This document shows positions 7,641 to 64,000 of a DNA stretch of 64,000 nucleotides, one piece after another. Source of the stretch: Burkholderia sp. BCC0322. Lineage in GTDB: Bacteria; Pseudomonadota; Gammaproteobacteria; Burkholderiales; Burkholderiaceae. Where the stretch lies: contig NZ_CADFDU010000003.1 of the NCBI RefSeq assembly GCF_902833045.1, forward strand, positions 310,001 through 374,000, in the 5' to 3' direction. The notes under the pieces are model-generated. The model saw nothing but the letters and a program-made list of their open reading frames with translations, did no database searches and was not told where the DNA came from. Both the position numbers and the translations under genes were made by a program. Numbering within the stretch: position 1 is the first letter of the stretch; each line of letters begins with the position of its first letter.

Positions 7641-8687
7641 ATGACGACCCGCCATCCGGACGTGCCGCGCGCCGCCTACTACGCACGGATCGCCGAGCAG
7701 CGCCTGGCGCCGCTGTGGGAATCGCTGCACAACCTCGTGCCGACATCCCCGCAGCCCGCCGCACAGGCCGCGATCTGGAAGTACGCGCAGATGCGCGACC
7801 TCGTGATGCAGGCCGGCAGCGTGATCAGCGCGGAAGAAGCCGTGCGCCGCGTGCTCGTGCTGGAGAACCCGGGGCTGCCCGGCAAGTCGAGCATGACGCC
7901 GACCCTGTACGCGGGCTTGCAGCTGATCCTGCCGGGCGAGATCGCGCCGAGCCACCGGCATACGCAGTCGGCGCTGCGCTTCATCGTCGAAGGGCGTGGC
8001 GCGTGGACGGCCGTGAACGGCGAGCGCACGACGATGCATCCGGGCGACTTCATCATCACGCCGTCGTGGGCATGGCATGACCACGGCAACCCGTCGGAGG
8101 AAGAGGGGGGCGAGCCGGTCGTGTGGCTCGACGGGCTCGACATCCCGCTCGTCGCGAACCTCGACGCGGGCTTCGCGGAGAACTACCCGGAAGCCGTGCA
8201 GCCCGTGAATTGCCCGGAAGGCGACAGCTTCGCGCGCTTCGGTCACAACATGGTGCCGGTGCGGCATCGCGTGAGCGATCCGACGTCGCCGGTATTCAGC
8301 TATCCGTATGCACGCACCCGCGAAGCGCTCGACGCGCTGTACCGGAATGGCGAGCTCGATGCGTGGGATGGGGTGAAGCTGCGCTATGTGAACCCCGCGA
8401 CCGGCGGCTGGCCGATGCCGACGATCGCCACCTTCATGCAGTTCCTGCCTGCCGGTTTCGACGGCCGCACGTACCGCGGCACCGACGCGACGATCTACTG
8501 CGTCGTCGAAGGCAGCGGCACCGCGCACATCGGCGGCAACGCATTCGCATTCGAGCCGCACGACATCTTCCTCGCGCCGTCGTGGGCGCCCGTGCGGCTG
8601 TCGGCATCGTCCGACAGCGTGCTGTTCAGCTATTCCGACCGGCCCGTGCTGTCTGCGCTGAACCTGCTGCGCGAAGCGCGCGACTGA
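7641..8687 (+). CDS. Gentisate 1,2-dioxygenase
   Basis: Ring-cleaving non-heme iron dioxygenase that opens gentisate to maleylpyruvate. 348 residues from the ATG at 7641, which has AGGAGA 6 bases upstream; the frame is open upstream but has no such signal. It has two cupin domains. The first has the metal-binding SHRHTQ (H105, H107) and WHDH (H146, H148). The second, around residue 290, lacks matching histidines, as in the known bicupin gentisate dioxygenases where one domain holds the iron. It is first in a five-gene operon with the rest of the gentisate pathway. Confidence 0.92.
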
Positions 8688-8775
8688 CGCCGGCCGCTTT
8701 CAACGACTCGTTTCCCGTTTCCCGTGCGCCGTCGCGGCGGCGCACCGTTCGTTCGCATTTTCGCTGGAGCCACTC

Positions 8776-9474
8776 ATGACTTTCGTTTTCCCGCCCGAAG
8801 CGCCCGTGGCGCTCCCCGTCGCTGGCAGCGACGCGCAGTTCGCGGTACGCCGCGTCTATTGCGTCGGTCGCAACTACGCGGCCCATGCGCGCGAAATGGG
8901 CTTCGATCCCGATCGCGAGCCGCCGTTCTTCTTCTGCAAGCCGGCCGATTCGATCGTGCCGGTCGCGTACGGCGAAACGCTCGATCTCGCGTATCCGTCG
9001 CAGACGCAGAACTATCACTACGAAGCCGAACTCGTCGCGGTGATCGGCAAGGGCGGTGCGGACATTCCGCTCGAGCGCGCGCTCGAACACGTGTGGGGCT
9101 ATGCGGTCGGCCTCGACATGACGCGCCGCGACCTGCAGATGAAGATGCGCGAGATGGGCCGGCCGTGGGAGATCGGCAAGGCGTTCGACCGCTCGGCACC
9201 GATCGGGCCCGTGCATCCGGCAAGCGACGTCGGTCATGTCGAGCAGGGCGCCCTGTGGTTGACCGTCAATGGCACGACGAAGCAGCAGAGCGACGTGTCG
9301 CACCTGATCTGGTCGGTTGCGGAAACGGTGGCCGACCTGTCGAAGTTCTTCCGCCTCGAACCGGGCGACGTGATCTTCACGGGCACGCCCGAGGGCGTCG
9401 GCGCGGTCGTCGCGGGCGACGTGATGAGGGTCGGCGTCGAACGGCTCGGCGAGCTGACCGTGCGCGTGGTCTGA
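8776..9474 (+). CDS. nagK: Fumarylacetoacetate hydrolase family, fumarylpyruvate hydrolase
   Basis: 232-residue FAH-fold hydrolase that splits fumarylpyruvate to fumarate and pyruvate, the last step of the glutathione-dependent gentisate pathway. It contains the core RVYCVGRNYAAHAREMG, the metal ligands in YHYEAELV (E83, E85) and YAVGLDMTRRD (D114), and the IFTGTPEGVG motif near the C-terminus. It sits between gentisate dioxygenase and the maleylpyruvate isomerase. The symbol follows the nag naphthalene/gentisate literature. Confidence 0.88.
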   Translation: MTFVFPPEAPVALPVAGSDAQFAVRRVYCVGRNYAAHAREMGFDPDREPPFFFCKPADSIVPVAYGETLDLAYPSQTQNYHYEAELVAVIGKGGADIPLERALEHVWGYAVGLDMTRRDLQMKMREMGRPWEIGKAFDRSAPIGPVHPASDVGHVEQGALWLTVNGTTKQQSDVSHLIWSVAETVADLSKFFRLEPGDVIFTGTPEGVGAVVAGDVMRVGVERLGELTVRVV

Positions 9475-9499
9475 CGCATCTTCCTCGAAAGGCGACATC

Positions 9500-10141
9500 G
9501 TGCAACTGCATAGCTTCTTCAACAGTTCGACATCCTACCGGGTGCGCATTGCGCTTGGGCTGAAAGGGCTGCCGTACGACACGCTGCCGGTGAACATCCG
9601 TATCGGCGAGCATCGCGATGCCAATTACGTCGCGCAGGTGAACCCGTCGGCGTCGGTGCCCGCGCTGGTCGACGGCGATTTCCGTCTCGGCCAGTCGCTC
9701 GCGATCCTCGATTACCTCGACCAGATCCAGCCGGAGCCTCGGCTGATTCCACTCGAACCGCACCGTCGTGCGCGCGTGCTGGAACTCGCGACGCTGATCG
9801 CATGCGACATCCATCCGGTCAACAACCTGCGCGTGCTGCGCTATCTCGACAGCGAGCTGAAGGTCACGCCGCAGCAGAAGACCGCGTGGTACCGGCACTG
9901 GGTCGCGGAAGGGATGGCCGGCGTCGAGCGGCTGCTCGCGCGCGCGGACGCGGGGCCGTGGTGCTTCGGCGACACGCCGACGCTCGCCGATCTATGCCTG
10001 GTGCCGCAGGTCGCGAATGCGTTGCGGATGGATTGCGACCTGAGCGCGTATCCGCGAAGCCTCGCGGTGTTTGAACACGCGCGGCGCGAGCCGGCGTTCG
10101 ACGCGGCACAGCCGCAGCGACAACCGGATTACGTCGCATAA
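9500..10141 (+). CDS. nagL: Zeta-class glutathione S-transferase, maleylpyruvate isomerase
   Basis: 213-residue cytosolic enzyme that uses glutathione to isomerise maleylpyruvate to fumarylpyruvate. The N-terminal FNSSTSYRVRIALGLKGL carries the serine-rich active site of the zeta class (maleylacetoacetate/maleylpyruvate isomerases), and TPTLADLCLVPQ is the typical C-terminal helix motif. It starts at GTG 9500 with GAAAGG upstream. Maleylacetoacetate isomerase is the main alternative, but the gentisate context favours maleylpyruvate. Confidence 0.87.
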   Translation: MQLHSFFNSSTSYRVRIALGLKGLPYDTLPVNIRIGEHRDANYVAQVNPSASVPALVDGDFRLGQSLAILDYLDQIQPEPRLIPLEPHRRARVLELATLIACDIHPVNNLRVLRYLDSELKVTPQQKTAWYRHWVAEGMAGVERLLARADAGPWCFGDTPTLADLCLVPQVANALRMDCDLSAYPRSLAVFEHARREPAFDAAQPQRQPDYVA

Positions 10142-56884: not shown

Positions 56885-57808
56885 TCAGCCGGTGGTCCGG
56901 ATGAATCGTGCGATGCGCGCCGCGATGACGTCGGGCGCATCCTCGAGACAGTAGTGCCCGACGCCCGCCAGCCGCTCGATGGGCGCGGACGGAAACAGTG
57001 CGATGAAGAGCGGCAGGAAGTGTTCGGCGCCGAGCGTCCGGTCGGCGTCTCCCCAGATCGCGAGCGCGGGTTTTTCGCGTATCGCGCGCAGCGCCGCCGC
57101 ATCGGGCTCCTCGAACCGGTGCGCGCCGGCGGCAAACCCGCGGGCCCATCCGATCGCGCCGAGACAGTCGGCCGGTTGCGCGAACGGCGCACCGTATGCG
57201 GCGATCCAGGTGTCGTTGATGATCGCGTGGTTTTCGAACCCGTTCAGCTTCAGCGTGCTCAGGATGTTGAAGCCGAGCTGACCGAGCACCGTCTCGAGCG
57301 TATCGTCCGCCGCCGCGCGCATGATCCACTGGAACCACGGCGCGTCGCGACCGTTCGCGTTCAGGCGCTCGACAAGATCGGGCTGGCCGAGCGGCGTCGG
57401 CCCGTTCACGGACACGATCCGCCGGATGCGATCCGGATGCCGCGCGGCAAGCCCCATGCCGACCGGGCCGCCGAAGTCGTGCATCACGAGCGTGATGCGA
57501 TCGAGGCCGCGCGCGAGTACGAAACGTTCCAGGTTGTCGATGTGGTCCTGCAACCAGTAGCTGCGGCCCGGCGGCGTCGCGCTTTTGCCAAATCCCATGT
57601 GATCGGGGACGACGACGCGGTGCGTCGGACTGAGCGCGGCAACCAGATGGCGGAACAGGTAGCCCCACGTGGGTTCGCCATGCAGGCACAGGATGGTTTC
57701 GCCATCGTGCGGGCCTTCGTCCACGTAGTGCATCCGGAAGCCGGATGCGTCGTCGAAATGCGGGGCGAATGGAAAGGTGCCGTCGAACGTGGCATCGGAC
57801 CGGATCAT
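56885..57808 (-). CDS. Alpha/beta hydrolase, haloalkane dehalogenase/epoxide hydrolase-like
   Basis: 307-residue hydrolase. HGEPTWGYLF (H43) is the oxyanion motif of dehalogenases and epoxide hydrolases, and the nucleophile elbow VMHDFGGPVG puts an aspartate (D111) as nucleophile. The catalytic histidine is in GVGHYCLEDAP. The tryptophan that normally follows the nucleophile in true haloalkane dehalogenases is phenylalanine here, so halide binding is doubtful. It is divergent from an HxlR regulator with a strong operator between. Confidence 0.8.
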   Translation of the reverse strand: MIRSDATFDGTFPFAPHFDDASGFRMHYVDEGPHDGETILCLHGEPTWGYLFRHLVAALSPTHRVVVPDHMGFGKSATPPGRSYWLQDHIDNLERFVLARGLDRITLVMHDFGGPVGMGLAARHPDRIRRIVSVNGPTPLGQPDLVERLNANGRDAPWFQWIMRAAADDTLETVLGQLGFNILSTLKLNGFENHAIINDTWIAAYGAPFAQPADCLGAIGWARGFAAGAHRFEEPDAAALRAIREKPALAIWGDADRTLGAEHFLPLFIALFPSAPIERLAGVGHYCLEDAPDVIAARIARFIRTTG

Positions 57809-57833
57809 CGAACGCTCCTTCGGATAGTCGGAT

Positions 57834-57893
57834 AATTTGGTTTCAAGTTGAAACCAAATTGAAGCGTAGGCTATCGGGTTTCAAGTTGCAACC
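57834..57893. promoter_or_regulatory. HxlR-type operators: 27-bp perfect palindrome plus a second site
   Basis: AATTTGGTTTCAA-G-TTGAAACCAAATT (57834-57860) is a perfect 13-1-13 palindrome 26 bases upstream of the leftward hydrolase. A second copy of its core, GGTTTCAAGTTGCAACC, lies at 57877-57893 and a half-site TTGCAACC at 58088-58095 near the HxlR start. The shared core identifies the binding motif of the adjacent HxlR protein. The rest of the 353-base divergent gap holds no gene. Confidence 0.8.
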
Positions 57894-58161
57894 GAAAAGA
57901 AGTCCGGGCCAACTGCGGAGCGACCGGGCGATGGGGGCGTGACGACCCGTCAGAAAGGAACGGCACCGTAATTTAGCGGCTGGAAGCTGGGGTTAGCGTG
58001 CCAATCAGGCCCGAATCGACCCTGCCATTCGTCGATCGCGAACAGTCGGGCTCCGAGCGATTGATCTTTCGCGTAGTGAGTTTTATATTGCAACCATTCA
58101 CTTCAACGGAAACGGCCGCCGTTCCGCCCGCATTCCGGGAACGGACGCGCCCCATGCATCG

Positions 58162-58611
58162 ATGAACAGACGAACCACGCACGAGGATTCCCCCTGCGGC
58201 GTTGCCCGCCCGCTGGACGCGATCGGCGACTGGTGGTCGCTGCTGATCGTGCGCGATGCGTTCGACGGGCTGCGCCGTTTCGGCGAATTCCAGAAGAACC
58301 TCGGGCTGGCCAAGAACATCCTGGCCGCGCGTCTGCGCAATCTGGTCGCGCACGGGATCATGGACATCGTGCCGGCCGCGGATGGCGGCGCGCATCACGA
58401 ATACGTGCTGACCGAGAAAGGGCGCGGCCTGTTTCCGCTGCTCGTCGCGCTGCGGCAGTGGGGCGAGGATTTCTTCTTCGAACCGGACGAGGCGCACGTG
58501 CTGCTCGTCGACCGGAAGAGCGGGTTGCCGGTCAGGAAGCTCGAGTTGCGTTCGCAGGACGGGCGCGTGCTCGGGCCGGAGGACACGGTCGTGTTGCCAC
58601 CGCCGGACTGA
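58162..58611 (+). CDS. HxlR-family transcriptional regulator
   Basis: 149-residue winged-helix regulator. CGVARPLDAIGDWWSLLIVRDA has the single N-terminal cysteine and the start of the HxlR fold, followed by RRFGEFQKNLGLAKNILAARL. The C-terminal part (residues about 100-149) extends beyond the minimal domain. It is divergent from the alpha/beta hydrolase and almost certainly binds the palindromes between them. HxlR proteins often respond to aldehydes, quinones or oxidants through the cysteine. Confidence 0.85.
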   Translation: MNRRTTHEDSPCGVARPLDAIGDWWSLLIVRDAFDGLRRFGEFQKNLGLAKNILAARLRNLVAHGIMDIVPAADGGAHHEYVLTEKGRGLFPLLVALRQWGEDFFFEPDEAHVLLVDRKSGLPVRKLELRSQDGRVLGPEDTVVLPPPD

Positions 58612-58632
58612 CGTGCGGCGACGGCGCCCGCG

Positions 58633-58752
58633 TTACCTCAGCAGCGCGTGTGCCTGCACGATCTGATCGGCGAGCTGGTTGATGGAAATACGCCGCTCCA
58701 TCGCCTGCGAGCGGATCTGCTGGCAGGCCTCTGCCTCGCTGATTGCGTATCG
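58633..58752 (-). pseudogene. Remnant C-terminal end of an ANTAR (NasT/AmiR-type) regulator
   Basis: On the minus strand an open frame of 39 codons ending in TAA at 58633 reads RYAISEAEACQQIRSQAM then ERRISINQLADQIVQAHALL. The SE-EA---IRS-AM pattern followed by N/S-x-L-AD-I is the end of an RNA-binding ANTAR domain. In-frame stops (TAA, TGA) lie immediately upstream and no receiver domain is present, so only the tail of the gene survives next to the tolC-like gene. Confidence 0.55.
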
Positions 58753-58815
58753 TCATTACCGAATAAGGTTGCGTGTACAACCTTCTGTCGAATGCCGATG
58801 CGCGTCGAGACGCGC

Positions 58816-60231
58816 TCAACTCCGGTCGTTCGCCGCGTTGCTTTCGAGGAAGCTGTCCACCGCGATCAGCGACTGTTCGTCGAGCGTACCCAGCACGCTT
58901 TTCAGTTTCAGCTGCAGCTTCAGCGCGTCGAGATAGCTGTCGAACAGCTTCTGCCGGATGCCCGAGATGTCGCGCCGCAGGTTCAGCGTCTCGTACGTCG
59001 TGCTGTAGCCGACCTGGTGCGCCTTCATCGACGAATCGTAGGCGAGACGCGCGGCCTGCAGCGACTGCTGCAGCGCGCGGATGCGCTTGCCGACCGATTC
59101 GAGCGCGGACAGCGCCTCGCGATGATCGGTGCCCAGTTGCTCCTCGACCTCGCGCAGCCGGTTGCGGTACTGCTCGGTCACGTGCTCGGCCTCCACCTGC
59201 CGGTAGTACACGCTGCCGCCGGAGAAGATCGGGATCGTCACCTGCACGCCGACCGCGCTCTGATGAAAGTCGGAGCGATCGGTGAGCCCGCGCAGGTTCG
59301 GGTTGAGCCCGCGCGAATACGACGCGAACAGGTCGACGGTCGGCAAGTGCTCGGCGCTGACGCGCTTCGCGGCGAGCCGCGCGACCTGGACGTCACGATA
59401 CGCCTGCCGGTACGCGGGGTTGTCCTGCGGCGCGTATTCGCCCGACGGAATGCGCGGCGACGACCCGCGCAGCGCGAGCCGGGGCCAGCGCGAGAAATCG
59501 ATCGTCGAACCGAGCAGTGTCTCGTAGCGGGCGCGGCGTGCGTCGACGTCGGTTTGCGCGAGCGCTTCGTCGGATTGCGCGAGGCTGCGGCGCGCCTCGA
59601 TTTCGGCCGTATCGCCGATCGTCTTCATCCCGAGCTGCGCCATGCGGCGCGTATCGCTTTCGAGCCGGGTGAGCGCGTTCACTTCGTCGTCGGCCGACTG
59701 CAGTTTCTCGCGCGCGCTCAGCAGGTCGAAGCACGCGTTCGCGACGCGCAGGATCAGGTCCTGCCTCGCCACCTCGAGCTTCTGTCTTGCCGATTCCTCG
59801 TACTCGGTGGCGCGCCGCATGTCGTACAGGTAGGGCACGTTGAACAGCGCCTGGGTGACCTGCGCGGAACCGTATGCGGCATTGCTCGATCCGCTGACGT
59901 CGATGCCGAACAGGTTCGCGTGCGTACCGTAGCGTCCCCATTCGAGTTGCGCGGCGGCCTGCGGCAGCATCTGCGCGCGCGCTTCGGGGAATTTCTGGCG
60001 GGCCGCGTCGTATTCGCTGCGCGCCTGCAGGTAGCGCGGATCGTGCACGACCGCGTACTGGAAGGCGGTGTCGAGGCAGAACGCACGGGCGTTCGCAGAC
60101 ATGCCGGCTATCGTTACAGCGAACAATGTCACGGTTGCAAGTCGGGGATTCCACCTAGTCGTAAAACTTGATAGGGAGTTACCCGCATTCCGCGTCGTCG
60201 ATCCGCGATTCGCGCGCCTCGTTTCAAACAT
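58816..60231 (-). CDS. TolC-family outer-membrane channel
   Basis: 471-residue type I secretion outer-membrane protein. The ATG at 60231 has GGAG 6 bases upstream; the frame is open 24 codons earlier without such a site. The signal peptide hydrophobic core is LATVTLFAVTIAGM, cleaved near ANA. Two TolC repeats, rich in helix and Ala/Gln/Arg, follow, with FSGGSVYYRQVEAEH and NLRRDISGIRQKLFDSYLDALKLQ, given by its ends, typical of TolC. It is divergent from the GG-leader peptide genes and is the likely exit channel for them. Confidence 0.87.
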   Translation of the reverse strand: MFETRRANRGSTTRNAGNSLSSFTTRWNPRLATVTLFAVTIAGMSANARAFCLDTAFQYAVVHDPRYLQARSEYDAARQKFPEARAQMLPQAAAQLEWGRYGTHANLFGIDVSGSSNAAYGSAQVTQALFNVPYLYDMRRATEYEESARQKLEVARQDLILRVANACFDLLSAREKLQSADDEVNALTRLESDTRRMAQLGMKTIGDTAEIEARRSLAQSDEALAQTDVDARRARYETLLGSTIDFSRWPRLALRGSSPRIPSGEYAPQDNPAYRQAYRDVQVARLAAKRVSAEHLPTVDLFASYSRGLNPNLRGLTDRSDFHQSAVGVQVTIPIFSGGSVYYRQVEAEHVTEQYRNRLREVEEQLGTDHREALSALESVGKRIRALQQSLQAARLAYDSSMKAHQVGYSTTYETLNLRRDISGIRQKLFDSYLDALKLQLKLKSVLGTLDEQSLIAVDSFLESNAANDRS

Positions 60232-60512
60232 GGCCGTCTCCGTCTCCTGCCCGTGCCGCAACGTATTGCGGCGGGATTTAAACGTGTTGAAATTGAAATT
60301 CAAACAGCGTGAATGCCTGCTACCGGTGGCGCATCGGAAAACGCGCCTGTAAGAGTGTGTCCTCCATTGAATTCCGATGCGCTCGCATGATAGCCTGATT
60401 TCGGCTCGTAATCGCAGTGATTATTAGATTAACAAGTCGCTAGGGATTAAAAGCCGTTTGTCTTTCAATGAAGGTTCTTTGCATCATCTTTATTTTTTAC
60501 GAGGAGAGAATG

Positions 60513-60686
60513 ATGAAGGTCATGACGACGGAACAGGTCAGGAATGTGCATGGCGGCGGTGCGATCAGCTCGCTGGGTAGCCTCGCCGTTGACGCCGCGC
60601 CGGTGGTCACCGCGCTCGGCCAGTTCCTGCCGAGCCTCGGCAATTACCTGCAGAACCCGAAGACGTTCAATAACACCGGCAAGTAA
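60513..60686 (+). CDS. Double-glycine leader peptide precursor 1
   Basis: 57-residue peptide, start 60513 with GAGGAG 6 bases upstream (ATG 60510 is also possible). The leader MKVMTTEQVRNVHGG is 15 residues and ends in GG, the cleavage site of C39 peptidases. The remaining core (about 42 residues: GAISSLGSLAV..., ending NTGK) is glycine-, serine- and leucine-rich with no cysteine, so it is not a lanthipeptide or disulfide bacteriocin. It resembles class II microcin or bacteriocin-like or signalling peptides. Same leader pattern as the second peptide. Confidence 0.75.
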   Translation: MKVMTTEQVRNVHGGGAISSLGSLAVDAAPVVTALGQFLPSLGNYLQNPKTFNNTGK

Positions 60687-60693
60687 CCGCCGT

Positions 60694-60716
60694 GCGCGGG
60701 GAGGCGCCCCCCGCGC
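60694..60716 (+). terminator. Intercistronic hairpin after peptide 1
   Basis: GCGCGGGG and CCCCGCGC form a perfect 8-bp stem with a 7-base loop, 8 bases past the peptide 1 stop and with no T-tract. It probably stabilises the upstream message or attenuates read-through, raising peptide over transporter expression. Confidence 0.5.
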
Positions 60717-60818
60717 GAAATGCTGCGAAACAGAAGGAAAAGAATCGATCGCCGCAGTGGAAATAAAGCGAATCCGAAATGTATTGCTTTCGGTTCGGGC
60801 GATTATCAGGAGGCAGGA

Positions 60819-60881
60819 GTGCCGGATTATATCCGTAATAAAGTAAAGGCCATTGAGATTGCAATTGTTGCAATTGGCTGA
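60819..60881 (+). CDS. Possible 20-residue peptide with strong ribosome site
   Basis: AGGAGG at 60808-60813 lies 5 bases before GTG 60819, the start of a 20-codon frame (MPDYIRNKVKAIEIAIVAIG) ending at TGA 60881. It lies between the two GG-leader peptides, is hydrophobic at its C-terminus and has no leader. It could be an immunity-like or regulatory peptide or a translational leader. Only the ribosome site supports it. Confidence 0.35.
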   Translation: MPDYIRNKVKAIEIAIVAIG

Positions 60882-60919
60882 CGGTGGCGGGCATTCCGAC
60901 AATATAAAGGCCACAGCAA

Positions 60920-61105
60920 ATGCGAGACATCACGGAAGAACAGGCCCGCCAGATTCGCGGCGGCGCGTCGCTTTACTCCAATTCGGCCGCCTATACGGTC
61001 GATCTCGTCAACCAGTCGATCGGGACCACGCTCCAGGGCCTGATGACCCAGTACCAGACCCGCGCCGTCGAGCAGTTCCGGATGTCGCTCGGCTCGTCGC
61101 GCTGA
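60920..61105 (+). CDS. Double-glycine leader peptide precursor 2
   Basis: 61-residue peptide from ATG 60920 with AAAGG about 8 bases upstream. The leader MRDITEEQARQIRGG is 15 residues, aligning with precursor 1 as M-x-x-x-T-x-E-Q-x-R-x-x-x-G-G. The core ASLYSNSAAY... (46 residues, ending GSSR) is rich in Ser, Gln and Thr and has no cysteine. It is a probable export substrate of the downstream C39 transporter. Confidence 0.75.
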   Translation: MRDITEEQARQIRGGASLYSNSAAYTVDLVNQSIGTTLQGLMTQYQTRAVEQFRMSLGSSR

Positions 61106-61143
61106 GCGGCCCGCCCAACAGCCGGTAACACCGATCTACCGTC

Positions 61144-61166
61144 GCAGCCGGCAGCGTGCCGGCTGC
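61144..61166 (+). terminator. Intercistronic hairpin before the exporter gene
   Basis: GCAGCCGGCA and TGCCGGCTGC form a perfect 10-bp stem with a 3-base loop, between peptide 2 and the exporter. With no T-tract it is more likely an attenuator or stabiliser than a full terminator. Confidence 0.5.
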
Positions 61167-61250
61167 GCCCATGCGTATCGCGTACGACCCGTCGCGGGCC
61201 TGCTACCGGCAGGCCCGGGCGGCGCGTCGTCGCGCCCCGGGTGCCCGACC

Positions 61251-63371
61251 ATGCTCTTCAATACGCGTAAAGTCCGTCCGGTCCTGCAGGACGAGGTGAC
61301 GGAGTGCGGCCTGGCCTGCCTCGCGATGATCGCGTCGTGGCACGGGCGCGAAACGACGTTGCGCACGCTGCGCAATCGCTATCCGGTCCGGATCGATTCC
61401 GGGCTGTCGTTCTTCGACCTGATGGAGATCGCGAACGATCTCGGCCTGCGCGCACGCGGGCTGCAGTTCGACGCGGGCGAGCTCGATGCGTTGAAGACGC
61501 CGTGCATCCTGCACTGGGGGATGAACCACTATGTCGTGCTGACGAAGGTCGGCTACGGCAGCGTGCACATCGTCGATCCCGCGCTCGGCGAAACGAAGCT
61601 GCCGCTCGCGCAGGCGCTCACGCACATCACCGGCTATGCGCTCGAACTGAATCCGGACATCGGCTTCACGCGCGCGGGGCAGGCCGACCGGATCCGGCTG
61701 CGCGACTACCTCGAAGGGCTCACCGGCATTCGCAAGAGCCTCGCGATCGGCATCGCGGGCGGCGTCGCCGCGCAGCTCCTGCTGCTGCTCGGCCCGTCGT
61801 ACGTGCAGCTGACGATCGACGAGGCGCTGAAGAAGACCGACGTCGACATCCTGTACCTGCTGACGATCCTGTTCGCGATCGTGTTCCTGTTCGACACGCT
61901 GTACGCGAACCTCGTCGGCAACATCAAGAGCTACCTGCGCAACATCGTGTCGCAGCAGTTGTCGGCGAACATGGTCGGGCATCTCGCGCGGCTGCCGATC
62001 GGCTATTTCCTGTTCCACAACACCGGCGATTCGATCTCGCGCGTGTCGTCGGTGTCGGAGGTCGGGCGCTTTCTGGTCGATGGCCTCGTCGGCGGGCTGC
62101 TCAATATCGTCACCTGCACGCTGACGCTCGTGCTGATGCTGTACTACAGCCCGGTGCTGGCCGGCATCAGCCTGGCCGGGATGGTGCTGTTCGCGCTCAG
62201 CCGGCTCGCGATCCAGCCGCAACTGCAGGACGCGATGTCGCAGATCCTCACGCGCGGCGCCGAAGCCGACGCGCTGCTGATCGAGAACATCCGCTCCGCG
62301 CACTCGATCAAGCTGCTGTCGGCCGAGACCGCGCGCAGCAGCCTGTGGGTGAACGCGTTCACGCAGAAGCTGCAGGCGATGCGCCAGCAGGAGCGGCTGC
62401 AACTGCTGTTCGACGCGATCTCGAAAGGCATCGTGCACGTCGAGCAGCTCGTGATCGTCACGTATGGCGCGTGGCTCGTGATGCACGGCCAGAGCACGAT
62501 CGGCGTGATCTACGCGTTCATCCAGTACAAGAACCTGTTTGCCGACAAGTTCATCGATTCGATCCAGCTCTACGTGCGCCGCAAGGTGCTGCAGGTGCAC
62601 ATGGATCGCGTCGCCGACGTGCTGCAGACCGAGACCGAGGAGCCCGCGCCGGACGCGGTCGTGCGTCCGGTCGACGGTTTCGACGGCGCGCTGTCGATTC
62701 GCGCGCTGTCGTATACGCCGAAAGGCGGCCACCGCCCGATCCTGCGCGACATCGCGCTCGATGTGCCGGCGGGCGGCAAGGTCGCGATCGTCGGCCGCAC
62801 CGGCAGCGGCAAGACGACGCTGCTGAACCTGATCTGCGGGCTCGTGCGGCCCGAGCCCGGCACGCTGTTCGTCGGCGGCGTCGATCTCGCGGAAGTGAAC
62901 CTGCGGCAGTACCGCAAGCATCTCGCGGCCGTCACGCAGTCCGACCAGCTGTTTCGCGGGACGATCCGCGACAACATCACGAACTTCGCGCCCGCGCCGC
63001 GGATCGGCGCGATGTTCGACGCGGCGAGGCTCGCGTGCATCCACGACGAGATCGAGCGGCTCGACCATCGCTACGACACGCCGCTCGGCGATACGCAGAA
63101 ATTCCTGTCGGCCGGCCAGATGCAGCGGCTGCTGATCGCGCGGGCGCTGTATTGCGAGCCGCGCCTGCTGATTCTCGACGAATTCTCGTCGAACCTCGAC
63201 CAGGCGACGACGCACGAGATCTGCCGCAACGTGCTGACGCTGCCGTGCACGATCGTGCTCGTCACGCACGATGCGTCGATCCTGTCGATGGTCGACCGGA
63301 TCTACGAGATGCAGGACGGCGTGTTGACCGACGCGACCGACGCATGGCGTTCGGCCGAGGAGGCGCGGTGA
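61251..63371 (+). CDS. Peptidase-containing ABC transporter (C39 PCAT)
   Basis: 706-residue inner-membrane exporter-protease. The N-terminal C39 peptidase has Cys19 in EVTECGLACL, His93 in GMNHYVVLT and Asp109 in HIVDPALG. Six transmembrane helices span about 165-420. The C-terminal ATPase has GRTGSGKTTLLNL, the signature LSAGQMQRLLIARAL and Walker B LLILDEFSSNLD. It would cleave after the GG of the two small precursors while exporting them. A membrane fusion protein is not seen in the window and may lie downstream. Confidence 0.92.
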   Translation: MLFNTRKVRPVLQDEVTECGLACLAMIASWHGRETTLRTLRNRYPVRIDSGLSFFDLMEIANDLGLRARGLQFDAGELDALKTPCILHWGMNHYVVLTKVGYGSVHIVDPALGETKLPLAQALTHITGYALELNPDIGFTRAGQADRIRLRDYLEGLTGIRKSLAIGIAGGVAAQLLLLLGPSYVQLTIDEALKKTDVDILYLLTILFAIVFLFDTLYANLVGNIKSYLRNIVSQQLSANMVGHLARLPIGYFLFHNTGDSISRVSSVSEVGRFLVDGLVGGLLNIVTCTLTLVLMLYYSPVLAGISLAGMVLFALSRLAIQPQLQDAMSQILTRGAEADALLIENIRSAHSIKLLSAETARSSLWVNAFTQKLQAMRQQERLQLLFDAISKGIVHVEQLVIVTYGAWLVMHGQSTIGVIYAFIQYKNLFADKFIDSIQLYVRRKVLQVHMDRVADVLQTETEEPAPDAVVRPVDGFDGALSIRALSYTPKGGHRPILRDIALDVPAGGKVAIVGRTGSGKTTLLNLICGLVRPEPGTLFVGGVDLAEVNLRQYRKHLAAVTQSDQLFRGTIRDNITNFAPAPRIGAMFDAARLACIHDEIERLDHRYDTPLGDTQKFLSAGQMQRLLIARALYCEPRLLILDEFSSNLDQATTHEICRNVLTLPCTIVLVTHDASILSMVDRIYEMQDGVLTDATDAWRSAEEAR

Positions 63372-64000
63372 TGCTCGGACGGCTCTTTCTGCTCAACCCG
63401 TTTTCGTATGCGTTCCTGGTGCGGCGCGCGGTGCGCGCCGTCGCGCTGCGCACGTCCCCCGCGCGCGGGCTGCGGCTGATGCGCTGGTGCTCGGGCGCAT
63501 GCCTGCGCTGCTTTCCGTGCATTCGCGAGTCGATCGAGCGCGCGGTCGCATACATGCTGAGCGCGCACCTGAACGACGATCCGCGACGGGTGCGGGAGGT
63601 GTCGGCGGCGATCGTGCGCGAGCTGTTCGAGGCCGAGTTCGCGGGGCTCAAGCTGCGCACGCACAGCCTCGAATCGATGAAGTCGATGATCGACGGCATG
63701 GCGTGCGAAGGCGACGAGCAGTTGCGCACGGCGCTCGCGCGCGGCGGCCCGCTGATGCTCGCGGGGCTGCACTTCGGCAACCTGATGCTGTTCGTCACGA
63801 AGCTGCGCTTCATGATTCCCGACGACCGCAAGCTGATGGTGATCCTGCACCGCGATGCGCCGGGCGCATTCTTCGACGATGCGCTGCGGCTCGTCGCCGA
63901 ATACGGCGCCGGCGAAGTGGAGTTCATCGACATCGAGGAGCGCGTGCACCTGCGGCGGCTGATCACGAGCCTGCGGCGCGAGGCGCCCGTCTTCCTGCTG
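63371..64000 (+). CDS. LpxL-like acyltransferase (LPLAT fold), partial at window edge
   Basis: First 210 residues visible; the frame stays open to the edge. The ATG at 63371 overlaps the exporter stop by one base (a GTG at 63368 is also possible). The block GGPLMLAGLHFGNLMLF (H134) resembles the active site of lipid A/LPLAT acyltransferases, but the acidic residue expected five positions after the histidine is methionine, so activity or specificity may be unusual. Coupling to the exporter suggests a role in peptide lipidation or membrane modification. Confidence 0.5.
   Translation, partial: MLGRLFLLNPFSYAFLVRRAVRAVALRTSPARGLRLMRWCSGACLRCFPCIRESIERAVAYMLSAHLNDDPRRVREVSAAIVRELFEAEFAGLKLRTHSLESMKSMIDGMACEGDEQLRTALARGGPLMLAGLHFGNLMLFVTKLRFMIPDDRKLMVILHRDAPGAFFDDALRLVAEYGAGEVEFIDIEERVHLRRLITSLRREAPVFLL

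Follow-up and report, generated by a model that had tools for sequence, protein, structure and literature searches.

A candidate ribosomal lipopeptide locus in Burkholderia that couples an LPLAT-fold acyltransferase to GG-leader peptides and a C39 exporter

Class II microcins and related small peptides carry double-glycine (GG) leaders and are secreted by a type I machinery made of a C39 exporter, an HlyD adaptor and TolC. A modifying enzyme can belong to such a locus, as in RaxX-RaxST-RaxA-RaxB of Xanthomonas, where a GG-type leader peptide, an HlyD-like protein and a C39 exporter are encoded together with a sulfotransferase. The locus described here occupies positions 58816 to 64000 of a 64,000-nucleotide stretch of Burkholderia sp. 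BCC0322 (hereafter the window, meaning the whole stretch analysed). It resembles the class II microcin systems in its GG leaders, C39 exporter, HlyD and TolC, but an acyltransferase (AT) is fixed in its operon, no immunity gene is recognized and its peptides score below family cut-offs. Lipidated ribosomally synthesized and post-translationally modified peptides (RiPPs), including microvionin and the lipolanthines, goadvionins, lipoavitides, selidamides and nostolysamides, are presented in one account as lanthipeptides acylated by GNAT enzymes (PMC13060382). The Burkholderia locus would share with them a ribosomal peptide proposed to bear a fatty acyl group, and differs from them in its enzyme of LPLAT (LpxM/PatA) fold instead of GNAT, its GG leaders and its C39/type I export. 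A closer parallel for the enzyme is VexE of the Vi antigen locus, a dedicated LPLAT beside an ABC-exported polymer, in which the HX4(D/E) acid is replaced, the His and block-3 Asp are present and the nearest folds are PatA and LpxM; however, VexE has a TPR domain and acylates UDP-GlcNAc (PMC9597891), whereas the Burkholderia AT gives no TPR match and adjoins a C39 peptide exporter. LpxL, LpxM and PatA have the same fold, conserved His and block-3 Asp, but the Burkholderia AT falls below the curated cut-offs, lacks the HX4(D/E) acid and sits in a peptide-export operon. No description of an LPLAT gene inside a GG-peptide/C39 locus was found in the titles and abstract starts of the open-licence PubMed Central (PMC) literature.

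The locus is best read as a ribosomal lipopeptide system in which the LPLAT-fold AT would acylate a GG-leader peptide ahead of its cleavage by C39 and its secretion by the type I route (estimated probability 0.58). The genes, their conservation and the fold and motif of the AT are shown, and coupling of the AT to the GG-peptide/C39 system is well supported; we infer that the peptide is acylated, at which site, and that it leaves the cell in this form. The features in the window are as follows.

58816..60102, minus strand: TolC-type outer-membrane factor, divergent from the peptide operon (the open reading frame, ORF, extends to 60303; start uncertain)
60513..60686, plus strand: precursor peptide pA, 57 aa (leader 60513-60557, core 60558-60683)
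60920..61105, plus strand: precursor peptide pB, 61 aa (leader 60920-60964, core 60965-61102)
61251..63371, plus strand: peptidase-containing ABC exporter, 706 aa (C39, membrane domain and ATPase)
61275..61655, plus strand: C39 leader-peptidase domain of the exporter (PF03412, residues 9-135)
63368..64000, plus strand: AT of LpxL/PatA fold, 5' 211 codons, continuing past the window end

A preliminary description of this DNA had proposed two cysteine-free precursors of 57 and 61 residues with a common 15-residue leader, and both were located as listed, neither containing Cys. The leader pattern M-x3-T-x-E-Q-x-R-x3-G-G fits the first 15 residues of pA and pB, which are its sole matches in the whole 64 kb (six frames, ORFs of at least 25 aa), and shuffling the mononucleotides of the window 40 times produced no match. 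Across nine aligned Burkholderia sequences, pA ends in N-x-x-G-K. Neither peptide exceeds the cut-off of any curated family in Pfam or NCBIfam: pA matches Bacteriocin_IIc of Pfam at 14.7 bits, under the cut-off of 27.1 and through its leader only, and pB has no match in either collection. No model describes the peptides, in keeping with the uncharacterized status they had been given. A possible likeness of pB to the R-body Reb proteins found no backing in Pfam, where pB has no match. The same description had named a C39-peptidase ABC exporter and a divergent TolC-like gene, and both identifications held: the exporter scores 99.2 bits for PF03412 (Peptidase_C39), 94.4 bits for PF00664 (ABC_membrane) and 102.6 bits for PF00005 (ABC_tran), and the minus-strand gene scores 174.5 bits for PF02321 (OEP), with TIGR01844 at 194.7 bits, under its cut-off of 225. 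Gln13, Cys19, His93 and Asp109 of the exporter are taken here to be the C39 site residues. In relatives, three genes follow that of the AT: one for a 431-aa HlyD adaptor, one for an OmpW-like protein of 449 aa (in locus L021) and then one that is presumably PPK2. The window thus contains the C39-ABC exporter, adjoining GG precursors and TolC of C39/GG-leader type I peptide secretion, with HlyD lying beyond it as seen in relatives.

Conservation was assessed in 22 related loci of Burkholderia and Paraburkholderia, 19 from genome contigs (L058-L076) and three from a plasmid collection (L021-L023). Genes for pA, pB, exporter, AT, HlyD and TolC are present in all 22, contig ends cutting TolC in L074 and HlyD in L076; the precursors are therefore conserved beside the exporter throughout, and the HlyD-type adaptor expected past the window edge directly follows the AT in each locus. 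The OmpW-like gene is present in 21 loci (the L076 contig stops short of it) and PPK2 in 20, being absent from L071 and beyond the contig end in L076. Since L071 (Paraburkholderia acidicola ATCC 31363) keeps the full set through OmpW in the absence of PPK2, the OmpW-like gene belongs to the system, unlike PPK2. Of 37 Burkholderia genomes, 17 contain an orthologue of the exporter at 89-99% identity; the identical 17 carry the AT and the remaining 20 have neither, and exporter, AT and peptides are inherited as a unit. In a set of 65 Burkholderia genomes, the AT occurs in 31, the copy in G073 being split in two (C2:632517-633514) while other species have intact copies; the system may be decaying in G073. 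The plasmid collection, searched with the window DNA, returned the three Burkholderia records, in which the stretch carries no annotation, and a 1% match in Nonomuraea.

The peptides change slowly among near Burkholderia species. The pA of the window is identical in 12 of the 19 genome-contig loci, and pairwise counts of the window peptides against six loci gave no nonsynonymous change in pA relative to L058, L061 and L073 and dN/dS of 0.06-0.08 relative to L067 and L068; the corresponding values for pB are 0-2 nonsynonymous changes and ratios of 0.19-0.30. Both peptides are under purifying selection over this range, a pattern more in line with a conserved role as a signal or at the surface than with a bacteriocin that evolves fast. 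The pB of B. ubonensis (L010 3752-3934; L067 7565-7741) has a Cys right before the GG (ICGG), unlike the other aligned leaders.

The AT, with GTG 63368 or ATG 63371 as its start codon, overlaps the stop of the exporter gene, as the preliminary description had it for an LpxL-like gene. Its full length is 334 aa in close relatives and about 300-360 aa across the set. The Burkholderia AT scores 18.5 bits against PF03279, under the cut-off of 22.3, which the ATs of three distant loci (L077, L078 and L103) exceed at 28.9-39.1 bits; against a PatA-type NCBIfam model it reaches 35 bits (cut-off 209), and a sequence search of solved structures returned no convincing match, with PatA at E 0.63. A fold search with the structural model of the AT points to the LPLAT fold, with PatA and LpxM as the nearest solved folds. 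Pfam gave no TPR match in the 334-aa Burkholderia protein, and no GNAT match was found among the scanned operon proteins, a scan outside which some flanking genes lie. The catalytic His is kept in 50 of 50 ATs compared (His135 in the window, 63770-63772) and the block-3 Asp is conserved (Asp214, past the window end). The HX4(D/E) acid is present in none of the 50, compared with 25 of 27 other alignable LPLATs in a profile-based comparison (29 rows, L108 and L137 being unreadable at the motif and L133 left out as a copy of L124); the His+5 position in the window is Met140. The missing acid could mean that the AT is a degenerate, catalytically dead LpxL relative with a structural role in the exporter complex, but conservation of the His and block-3 Asp makes this very improbable, as do two characterized enzymes: in PatA, E200 is the acid partner of the catalytic His and the D131A variant of HX4D retains 37% activity (PMC4792965), and VexE is active with Tyr at the acid position (PMC9597891).

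The association of AT and peptide exporter extends well beyond Burkholderia. Searching with a profile of the Burkholderia AT brought up a distant homologue in Methylobacterium fujisawaense DSM 5686 (L077; 24-25% identity), and among 299 genomes sampled from the family one homologue lay in another Burkholderiaceae genus (G713/L078). Each of these two ATs has HlyD, a GG-leader peptide and a C39 exporter as neighbours. Further members were found in Rhizobium sp. SSA_523 (L082), in G848, G960 and G1262, and, within the genus to which G848 belongs (probably Methylobacterium), in 27 of 111 genomes. In all 27 loci from this genus, AT, HlyD and C39 exporter are contiguous on the same strand; 24 of them also have TolC. 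The homologous loci span Methylobacterium, Rhizobium, another alphaproteobacterial family and another Burkholderiaceae genus, and their GG-leader peptides are unrelated to those of Burkholderia. This recurrence, at times with acyl-carrier and ketosynthase genes, makes the proposed coupling of the AT to an uncharacterized GG-peptide/C39 system stronger than could be known when it was first described. The AT family is sparse, with strong matches in 3 of 398 genomes of a phylum sample (G001, G848 and G960) and 3 of 297 of an order sample.

Other LPLATs do not share this setting. Around weaker LPLAT matches, none of 12 regions (L105-L116, representing 11 of the 16 such genomes; G1045, G766, G996, G870 and G813 lie outside this check) has an adjacent C39 exporter, and five have partial ABC-ATPase matches at least 4 kb away. 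Gammaproteobacterial matches L079-L081 were rejected as ordinary LPLATs amid housekeeping genes. Genus g297 gave six weak matches (L188-L193), excluded from the main counts: L188, L190 and L191 have a C39-like exporter directly downstream together with GG peptides, an arrangement not found in L189, L192 and L193. The LPLAT-like protein of L188, L190 and L191 is remote; in L188 the Pfam C39 match is followed further downstream by genes with HlyD_3 and MacB domains, and the peptides of L188 and L191 have a common C-terminal stretch, VNVYVRRGKWG.

The peptides of the distant loci combine unlike cores with like tails. Of 29 alphaproteobacterial loci (L163 being omitted as a copy of L077), 27 yielded leader-type peptides in a rule-based scan reaching at most 5 kb from the AT; the two negative loci are L178, with a run of N upstream of the AT, and L183, whose contig begins close to the AT. 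None of 15 other LPLAT genes had leader-type peptides by the same scan, a rough control that was centred on the locus middle, left other genes unmasked and differs in G+C from the Methylobacterium genomes. The cores of the 50 peptides are diverse (proline/cysteine-rich, glycine-rich, histidine-rich, asparagine/serine-rich). Lys is found among the last five residues of 47 of the 50, many of which are close kin and not independent; in a hand-kept set the final residue is Cys or Ser in 47 of 49, and Lys density is 0.40 in the last six residues and 0.04 in the remaining core. Several loci have multiple peptides, up to six in L179. A constant tail on a changing core suggests that a common machinery reads the tail, and this could be the AT, or else the exporter. 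L169, a locus of the Methylobacterium genus, encodes four GG peptides at 8004-9362; their cores are of two unlike types and their tails are SSKKS/SSKKC and GKDKS.

The strongest sign of an acyl product from the locus is given by dedicated acyl-chain genes. An acyl carrier protein (ACP) and a FabF-like ketosynthase are encoded in 8 of the 29 alphaproteobacterial loci (L082, L103, L104, L121, L164, L165, L166 and L187), joined by a MaoC-like dehydratase in seven of these and by a class III aminotransferase in L082, L104 and L121. Pfam confirmed the ACP in L082, L103 and L104, the ketosynthase in L082 and L103, MaoC in L103 and L104 and the aminotransferase in L082 and L104; the other calls are from tblastn only. 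The DS motif is kept in the four ACPs examined, and the Cys and His motifs are present in the L082 and L103 ketosynthases, which we take to be the functional motifs expected of each. In L187 (G1381, 8977-9838) the AT is in two pieces, with exporter, ACP, ketosynthase and peptide genes otherwise there.

These genes could alternatively build a separate product. ACP, ketosynthase, MaoC and class III aminotransferase might make an aminolipid, exported or used alongside an unmodified GG-leader bacteriocin or microcin, and C39, HlyD and TolC with small GG peptides correspond to the class II microcin layout; the g297 peptide, like pA, has a sub-threshold Bacteriocin_IIc match (21.0 bits). Such a division of labour nevertheless appears unlikely, in view of an AT that forms a contiguous block with exporter and HlyD in both bacterial classes under differing gene orders and that, in the window, overlaps the stop of the exporter, of tails that are common where cores differ, and of near-species Burkholderia peptides that are under purifying rather than diversifying selection.

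The main rival to the lipopeptide proposal is self-protection, the second option of the preliminary description, in which the AT would remodel a membrane lipid (lipid A or other) and the producer would resist its own unmodified membrane-active peptides. The LpxM/PatA fold of the AT is suited to this, and the AT stays with the export genes while peptides vary by clade, as a general resistance enzyme might. No small immunity gene is recognized among the called operon ORFs either, the OmpW-like protein and the AT being possible candidates. We nonetheless consider self-protection doubtful, although less so than the unmodified bacteriocin: the ACP and ketosynthase genes better fit a special acyl product, the common Lys/Ser/Cys tails on unlike cores suggest machinery reading the peptide, further LPLAT copies besides the AT are present in all five genomes searched, and the AT active site departs from other LPLATs as does that of VexE (PMC9597891).

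In the proposed lipopeptide pathway, pA and pB, whose 15-residue GG leaders can be read from the sequence, would be produced as precursors. In the cytosol the AT would transfer an acyl group from acyl-ACP to a precursor residue, perhaps in the conserved C-terminal tail, with His135 and Asp214 as the putative catalytic pair by analogy with PatA and VexE. As in well-known families, the C39 domain would then cut after the GG, and the ABC exporter, HlyD and TolC would carry the core across both membranes; in Burkholderia, the OmpW-like protein might, speculatively, receive or handle the product at the outer membrane. Some alphaproteobacterial versions probably use a special acyl chain from the dedicated ACP and ketosynthase, often with the dehydratase. 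The product would be a lipopeptide, either surface-held or released.

Several observations weigh against this proposal. The ACP/ketosynthase pair is absent from the Burkholderia loci and from 21 of the 29 alphaproteobacterial loci. Lys is missing from the core of Burkholderia pB, the window copy included, and of the g297 peptide, so a single Lys-acylation rule fails and no one nucleophile serves all. The L082 peptide gene is on the strand opposite the AT. In L078 (10122-12246) stops interrupt the exporter frame downstream of intact C39 and membrane domains, and this copy may therefore be decaying; its AT clusters on long branches with the LPLAT of L106, which has no C39 exporter beside it, and a single origin of all ATs is thus not established. 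Constraint on pA is weaker relative to the distant L070 (dN/dS 0.69; pB 0.15), and confidence in the structural model of the AT is middling (pLDDT 68.6). The LPLAT enzymes described in the cited papers acylate glycolipids or sugars, not peptides.

The wider claim would be that Alpha- and Betaproteobacteria have a widespread class of ribosomal lipopeptides, apparently not yet described, whose conserved C-terminal tail is acylated by an LPLAT-fold AT, not a GNAT, before C39/type I export, sometimes with a custom acyl chain from a dedicated ACP and ketosynthase; we hold the chances of this to be evenly balanced. If true, an enzyme fold of lipid A type has been recruited to lipidate ribosomal peptides, and an LPLAT without HX4(D/E) beside C39 and GG peptides would serve as the class marker in genome mining. 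Methylobacterium and the Burkholderia cepacia complex would then have a secreted peptide family that could serve in signalling, in modifying the surface or in competition. With small peptides and a compact enzyme set, acylation and its site are directly testable by mass spectrometry.

Rfam gave no match in 58000-64000. Upstream of the locus, the window contains an alpha/beta hydrolase gene (Pfam) and an HxlR-type regulator (56885-58611). This hydrolase/HxlR flank is present in some relatives and replaced by gene upL21 in others, and the upstream flank is therefore variable.
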